Origin: Gammaproteobacteria bacterium
GTDB taxonomy: Bacteria > Pseudomonadota > Gammaproteobacteria > Pseudomonadales > Pseudohongiellaceae
Direction: 5' to 3'
Assembly (NCBI GenBank): GCA_030682575.1
Contig: JAUXNX010000016.1
Location: 1-64,000 of the forward strand
DNA: 64,000 nucleotides
Numbering within the stretch: the first letter of the stretch is position 1; each line of letters starts with the position of its first letter. The position numbers and the translations under genes were made by a program. The notes below the pieces were generated by a model. It saw only the letters and a list, made by a program, of their open reading frames with translations, did no database searches and had not been told where the DNA came from. Below are positions 33,593 through 35,266 of the stretch, piece by piece.

Positions 33593-35266
33593 ATGACTTA
33601 CCAGGTACTGGCGAGAAAATGGCGTCCCAAATCATTCAGCGACATGGCCGGTCAGGAACATGTGCTGCAGACGCTGATACACGCTCTCGACAATAACCGT
33701 CTGCACCACGCCTATCTGTTCACCGGGACGCGCGGCGTAGGTAAAACCACGATCGCACGAATTTTCGCTAAGTGTCTGAACTGCGAGATGGGCATCACTT
33801 CAACGCCCTGTGGCAAATGCAGCGCTTGTCTCGAAATTGCCGAGGGACGATTTATCGATCTCATCGAAGTTGATGCAGCGTCGAAGACTAAAGTTGAAGA
33901 TACGCGCGAGCTCCTGGAAAATGTTCAATATGCCCCCTCCCGAGGCCGCTATAAGGTTTACCTGATTGACGAAGTGCATATGCTATCTACACATAGCTTT
34001 AATGCGCTACTCAAAACGCTGGAGGAACCGCCGCCACACATAGTATTTCTACTGGCGACAACAGATCCGCATAAACTGCCAATTACAATACTTTCGCGTT
34101 GCTTGCAATTCAGCCTGAAAAATCTGAGTCCACAGAAAATTGTCGACTATTTGCGTTCGGTACTTATTGCCGAACAAATTCCTTTTGAAGAGGGGGCCTT
34201 GTGGCACCTGGCTAAAGGGGCGCAAGGGAGCATGCGTGACGCTTTGACCTTGCTTGATCAAAGCATTTCATTCTGTGCCGGTAATGTCCGCGAAGCAGAA
34301 GTGAGTGAATTGTTGGGCACACCGGATCAGACTCTACTTATTCGAATCATCGAGGCTCTGAAAGGCGAGAACGCATCGGGCTTGCTCGATTGTGCAAGTT
34401 CGATAGCTGAGCGCTCTTTTGACTATTTTATTTTCCTTGAAAACCTGCTTTCACTACTACATCGACTCGCCATTGCCCAGCTTGTACCCGGTGGCGTCGA
34501 CAACAGCCAGGGAGACAGGGAACAAGTGCTGGCTCTAGCACGCGAACTCAAGAGTGAAGACATCCAGCTCTATTATCAGATAGCACTGAACGGGCGACAG
34601 GATTTGGCCAACGCACATGATCCGCGCATGGCATTCGAGATGTTGTTGCTCAGGATGCTAGTATTTTCTCCTCAACCACCAGTGGACACTGCACTCCTGA
34701 TGCAAGTCGACACGCATTCTCCTATCCAGACTGCAGAGACACCTGCGATATCTGCAGAAAGACTTACACCGGAAGCTGCTGATTCGGAAAAAAAAAAGAC
34801 TGAACTGAAGGCGAAAGACTCAGACCCAGCCCCAGCCCCTGTTAAAGTCACTCCAATAGAAGATAGCGCATGCCTGACCCCACAAAGTTGGATAGCTCTG
34901 GTAGACGAGTTGGCGATTACCGGTATAACTGGAAACCTGCTCGCCAACTGCATTCCTGAGTCTCAGAATGAATCGTCTCTCGCCCTGATTCTGGATGAAT
35001 CACAGAGTTCTCTTTTCAACGATGAGCATTTGCGGCGTATTACACAATGTCTGTCCGGCTATTTTGGGAGGGAAATGCTGGTCAGGATCAGTATTGGCCA
35101 ACTGGATACAGAATCCCCAGCCCGCTTCAGACAACGTATGCAGGAGGAGCGCATACAGAAAACTGTCAAAAATTTCGAGAACGACGAGAACGTGCAAGCT
35201 ATCGTTCAGCAGTTCTCGGCACATATTCAGCAAGATAGTATCAGTGTTGCAAACGAGGTGAAGTAA
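33593..35266 (+). CDS. dnaX: DNA polymerase III tau/gamma subunits
   Basis: YQVLARKWRPKSFSDMAGQEHVL, GTRGVGKTTIARIFAKCLNC, zinc module; A10 slippery run at 34788. Confidence 0.97.
   Translation: MTYQVLARKWRPKSFSDMAGQEHVLQTLIHALDNNRLHHAYLFTGTRGVGKTTIARIFAKCLNCEMGITSTPCGKCSACLEIAEGRFIDLIEVDAASKTKVEDTRELLENVQYAPSRGRYKVYLIDEVHMLSTHSFNALLKTLEEPPPHIVFLLATTDPHKLPITILSRCLQFSLKNLSPQKIVDYLRSVLIAEQIPFEEGALWHLAKGAQGSMRDALTLLDQSISFCAGNVREAEVSELLGTPDQTLLIRIIEALKGENASGLLDCASSIAERSFDYFIFLENLLSLLHRLAIAQLVPGGVDNSQGDREQVLALARELKSEDIQLYYQIALNGRQDLANAHDPRMAFEMLLLRMLVFSPQPPVDTALLMQVDTHSPIQTAETPAISAERLTPEAADSEKKKTELKAKDSDPAPAPVKVTPIEDSACLTPQSWIALVDELAITGITGNLLANCIPESQNESSLALILDESQSSLFNDEHLRRITQCLSGYFGREMLVRISIGQLDTESPARFRQRMQEERIQKTVKNFENDENVQAIVQQFSAHIQQDSISVANEVK
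34788..34803 (+). promoter_or_regulatory. Putative programmed frameshift/slippage site in dnaX
   Basis: GAA AAA AAA AAG ACT GAA: A10 with embedded A AAA AAG; -1 frame reads AAA AAA GAC TGA. Confidence 0.75.

Follow-up and report, generated by a model that had tools for sequence, protein, structure and literature searches.

The dnaX gene studied here raises the question of how a single reading frame for the full-length tau subunit of DNA polymerase III might also yield a shorter, gamma-like protein. Within the window, the whole stretch of 64,000 nt that was analysed, dnaX lies at 33593–35266 on the forward strand, as do all of its features described below, and encodes a tau of 557 aa in one ORF (NCBIfam PRK07994, E = 4.5e-227; TIGR02397, E = 1.7e-132). 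Domain III (Pfam PF12169, aa 232–364) spans 34286–34684, and the alpha-binding tau domain V (Pfam PF12170, aa 431–550), present in full-length tau only, spans 34883–35242. The linker joining the two domains contains a run of ten A's (34788–34797), a slippery tract proposed as a site of transcriptional slippage on the basis of its sequence, its conservation in the genus and the invariance of its codons. Codons 399–404 (34787–34804) read GAA AAA AAA AAG ACT GAA and embed an in-frame A_AAA_AAG heptamer (34792–34798), which may act as a minor ribosomal −1 site. Both non-zero frames are closed close to the tract, the −1 frame by a TGA at 34801–34803, giving a predicted product of 403 aa that ends EKKKD, and the +1 frame by a TGA at 34806–34808, giving predicted products of 404 aa (EKKRLN) or 405 aa (EKKKRLN). 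The sequence and coordinates of the tract, the heptamer and the two stops agree with the original prediction, as does the location of the tract downstream of domain III.

Pattern searches of the genome, and Markov models built from the window, were used to assess how unusual such a run is. Only three A10 runs are present on both strands of the 3.73 Mb genome, where 16–45 were expected, so A10 is avoided in this genome and one of the three remaining runs is in dnaX. Another lies outside the window, at G000:C2:206647-206656 (L002 1501-1510, minus strand), between two prophage genes, one for a tail assembly chaperone (phrog_1749) and one for the tail protein that follows it (phrog_337), immediately upstream of the tape measure gene. 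This is a location that we take to be the classic G/GT frameshift position, which would place two of the three A10 runs at likely recoding sites.

Conservation was followed in the genus of the window through the 12 dnaX genes recovered with the tract region, each from a separate species. All 12 retain A10G in the form xAA AAA AAA AAG, so the tract is not lost in any of the close relatives checked. The −1 stop is placed exactly one codon past the tract in each of them, and the +1 stop falls 2–10 codons past it, hence within 10 codons in 12/12. The three Lys columns of the tract use one codon each across the 12 species, despite poorly conserved flanks within the linker. By comparison, none of the 11 other invariant Lys columns in the genus uses a single codon, and 96 of the 100 other invariant two-codon columns vary in codon, with four using one codon only. 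The persistence of single Lys codons in the tract, amid invariant columns whose codons vary, points to selection acting on the nucleotide tract.

The same features were then surveyed in 137 genomes of the family, mostly fragmentary assemblies, from most of which dnaX was obtained and in which 109 genes were assessable for the tract. Runs of 9–12 A's are present in 97 of the 109 (A10G in 68, A9G in 17 and other forms in 12), the rest having A8 (one gene), A6G (two) or no run (nine). In 91 of the 98 genes with at least 8 A's, the run starts within or right after a GAA, CAA, GTA, CTA, ATA or TTA codon, as compared with only 22% of codons ending in A overall. The residue preceding the tract lysines varies (E, Q, V, L or I) while its terminal A's persist. 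As read from these sequences, the conserved entity is the nucleotide run and not the protein. Nine genomes with at least 9 A's have lost the closing AAG, the last codon of the run being ATA, AAC, ACA, AAT or AAA, and retain the long run nonetheless; 88 of the 97 genes with long runs have A_AAA_AAG. Stops lie within five codons of the tract in 87% of family dnaX genes for the −1 frame (38% expected from random linker or domain V codons) and in 81% for the +1 frame (25% expected), the +1 stops being nearer than for codons drawn at random from these genes (P = 2e-4). The frame that closes first differs by genus, being −1 in g1 and g6 and +1 in g2 and g3, with the −1 stop exactly one codon off in all g1 and 12/13 g6 genes. 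The earlier claim of an immediate stop in either direction therefore stands as a trend of the family in both frames, but within the genus of the window strict placement is confined to the −1 stop.

A small number of genes depart from this pattern. Nine genomes (L188, L200, L202, L204 and L206–L210) encode a shorter DnaX of 463–499 aa with no A run, an apparent loss of the gamma switch. In G049 (L146) the tract at codon 395 is A11 and not A10. Only a few codons further on, the zero frame is closed by a stop, and it is the +1 frame that carries an intact tau domain V; either tau would depend on slippage here, or the run length is a homopolymer error of the assembly. G022 (L141) has A6G with a strong Shine-Dalgarno sequence at codon 419; there AAG CCC TGA ends the zero frame, and the frame open through tau domain V is −1. 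Either the organisation is reversed, as has been reported in Chlorobium, or the assembly is in error. In G015 (L160), the zero frame runs into a stop past the A10 that follows codon 394, tau domain V begins in the −1 frame, and an apparent inserted repeat, SPTPLPQAGEG, is present in the linker.

Two explanations would dispense with a programmed event. The linker might be Lys-rich and merely A-rich in its codons, with one product made; linkers are low-complexity and charged, and AAA is a common Lys codon. Against this, codon invariance is confined to the tract, A10 is avoided elsewhere in the genome and the stops are specifically placed. We regard this explanation as highly improbable, and reject a chance A-rich linker on the codon invariance of the tract. 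Alternatively, the run might be a mutable DNA homopolymer serving phase variation, or an artefact of assembly, and the few assemblies with out-of-frame or reversed variants (A11 in G049; G015) speak for this. This is extremely improbable given that the same in-frame A10 recurs in each of the 12 genus members, all separate species, that dnaX is an essential replication gene and that nearly all runs preserve the tau frame. The programmed gamma/tau switch of the original prediction is backed by the comparative evidence from the tract, the stops and the codon constraint.

The remaining issue is whether such a switch would operate during translation or transcription, and the stimulators of the E. 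coli site bear on this directly. In the window, no E. coli-type internal Shine-Dalgarno sequence was found about 10 nt upstream, the best duplex being −3.5 kcal/mol, at the 20th percentile of its own gene. The GGAAG noted originally is present at 34771–34775, 12 nt before the A run and 16 nt before the heptamer, but is a weak Shine-Dalgarno-like string that forms this same duplex, does not occur genus-wide and is unsupported as a stimulator. None of the 12 genus members has a Shine-Dalgarno sequence in the top 5% of its own gene. Nor was a stable downstream stem-loop found in the window, where the 50 nt after the tract fold at −5.8 kcal/mol (79th percentile of the gene), compared with −19.1 kcal/mol for E. 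coli in the same test. Across the genus, the downstream region is at the 78th percentile within the gene, less folded than most of it, and neither a stem nor an upstream Shine-Dalgarno sequence exceeds the gene's own background.

Across the order, A-run lengths in the linker are bimodal, at 6–7 or 9–12, with A8 nearly absent. Long sites (at least 9 A's, n = 102) were compared with short sites (A6–7G, n = 38) from the family and from sampled, non-exhaustive outgroups, the short sites being picked by the A6–7G heptamer in the linker and not by a Shine-Dalgarno sequence or stem. The median Shine-Dalgarno duplex is −2.9 kcal/mol at long sites and −9.05 kcal/mol at short sites, and the median distance to the +1 stop is 2 and 16.5 codons, respectively. 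A duplex of −5.5 kcal/mol or better is found at 34/38 short and 17/102 long sites (p = 7.5e-6), the median downstream fold is −19.0 and −8.3 kcal/mol, respectively (p = 9e-5), and a +1 stop lies within four codons at 6/38 short and 80/102 long sites (p = 8e-6), each test using one value per group, which corrects in part for the kinship of sequences that are related and not independent. Because genes with long sites are somewhat lower in GC, within-gene percentiles were added, and these agree. E. coli K-12 dnaX scores as a short site in the same test, and the dnaX of the window is of the long type. On these sequence features, the short type (A6–7G, strong Shine-Dalgarno, stem and only the −1 stop near) is the E. 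coli type, presumably ribosomal, and the long type (A9–12, neither stimulator and both frames closed) is the Thermus type, presumably read by transcriptional slippage. Long runs are also present in families f3, f11, f15, f16, f24, f31 and f37.

The long-type architecture of the window favours slippage by RNA polymerase as the main source of a gamma-like DnaX of 403–405 aa, and the A10 run is very likely a programmed transcriptional slippage site. RNA polymerase would stutter on A10 to give dnaX mRNAs with 10, extra or missing A's. Transcripts whose run is ten A's long, or differs from ten by a multiple of three, would encode the 557 aa tau or a lysine-variant tau, and other lengths would lead to the nearby −1 or +1 stop and a gamma-like DnaX retaining the ATPase and domain III without the alpha-binding domain V. 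Transcripts with one extra A would end at the TGA at 34801–34803 as the 403 aa protein, those lacking one A at the TGA at 34806–34808 as the 404 aa protein, and those with two extra A's as the 405 aa protein. Ribosomal −1 slippage on the embedded heptamer may add to this and would produce the same 403 aa protein as transcripts with one extra A, so that, judging from the sequence, only length-altered mRNA or the 404 and 405 aa products would distinguish the two routes. That slippage happens, its efficiency and the use of gamma are what we infer from the observed tract, its conserved stops, the constraint on its codons and the absence of stimulators.

It is unlikely that the source of gamma is instead a programmed −1 shift of the ribosome at A_AAA_AAG, as in E. 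coli, with the extra A's incidental or an extended slippery run. The heptamer is in frame, the −1 stop is one codon on as in E. coli, and the genome of the window has only one tRNA-Lys, UUU, to read both AAA and AAG, also as in E. coli. A tRNA-Lys(CUU), a possible block to ribosomal shifting, is absent from the genome, so the tRNA set gives no preference for transcription over translation. However, the genus is without the internal Shine-Dalgarno sequence and downstream stem that A6–7G sites of sister families both have, long runs survive loss of the closing AAG, and +1-frame stops are enriched, which are useless for a −1 shift and would not be needed by a pure −1 device. Transcriptional slippage accounts for the length of at least 9, the closure of both frames, the long runs without a closing AAG and the lack of stimulators. 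The retention of AAG in most species, together with the single tRNA-Lys, leaves room for a ribosomal contribution, and the moderate Shine-Dalgarno scores at 17/102 long sites count against the transcriptional reading. The original prediction had suspected a mechanism unlike that of E. coli and left both routes open; the comparison favours the transcriptional one.

Bacterial RNA polymerase is prone to slip on runs of nine or more A's (PMC1088944, PMC5009743), and dnaX of Thermus thermophilus undergoes transcriptional slippage on A9 (Larsen et al. 2000, as described in PMC5009743 and PMC1088944). Both genes encode tau in one ORF, with at least 9 A's and near stops in both other frames; in T. thermophilus, mRNAs of the wrong length give gamma, whereas here slippage is predicted from the same architecture. 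Unlike in Thermus, the A10 ends in an in-frame AAG that preserves A_AAA_AAG, there is one tRNA-Lys and not two, and the host is a gammaproteobacterium, with the ribosomal signal present in the sister families of its own family. E. coli dnaX shares the in-frame heptamer, the −1 stop one codon on, a gamma-like product of about 400 aa and the single tRNA-Lys, but has A6, an internal Shine-Dalgarno sequence and a downstream stem-loop, and lacks the closed +1 frame. The GeneTack survey described two-ORF dnaX genes with 10 A's, read as transcriptional slippage (PMC3711429); there tau needs the shift, whereas here tau is in one frame and gamma needs it. Slippage in Blochmannia dnaX (PMC3017870) was considered and set aside as a different case, being within the tau-only region and rescuing a frameshift. 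Among the papers of the collection searched, none linked Pseudohongiella with dnaX.

In a tree built from the DnaX N-terminal region, in which some deep branches are weak, the family of the window forms one clade (97% support) with the long run as its prevailing state. The nine run-less genomes also form one clade (100% support), and the two A6G members (G014 and G022) fall inside genus g2. Over the order, the long state requires 12 changes, five of them forced by well-supported branches, counts that give no direction, and dnaX therefore appears to have switched its readout several times. It seems reasonably likely that, within one order, dnaX has switched repeatedly between a ribosomal (A6–7G, Shine-Dalgarno and stem) and a transcriptional (A9–12, both frames closed and no stimulators) route to gamma, with the family of the window an old, stable transcriptional clade in which the embedded heptamer may remain in use as well. 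The new element is the recurrence of the transcriptional kind beside the ribosomal kind within one order.

Transcriptional slippage in dnaX has been proven in Thermus, a lineage remote from E. coli. Within the Gammaproteobacteria, a family of the Thermus architecture that stands beside families of the ribosomal type would provide close pairs for studying how an essential gene passes from translational to transcriptional recoding of one of its products. That a mutable A10 is kept in the essential dnaX and avoided elsewhere in the genome implies that the benefit of gamma outweighs its cost, a point relevant to the long-standing question of what purpose gamma serves.
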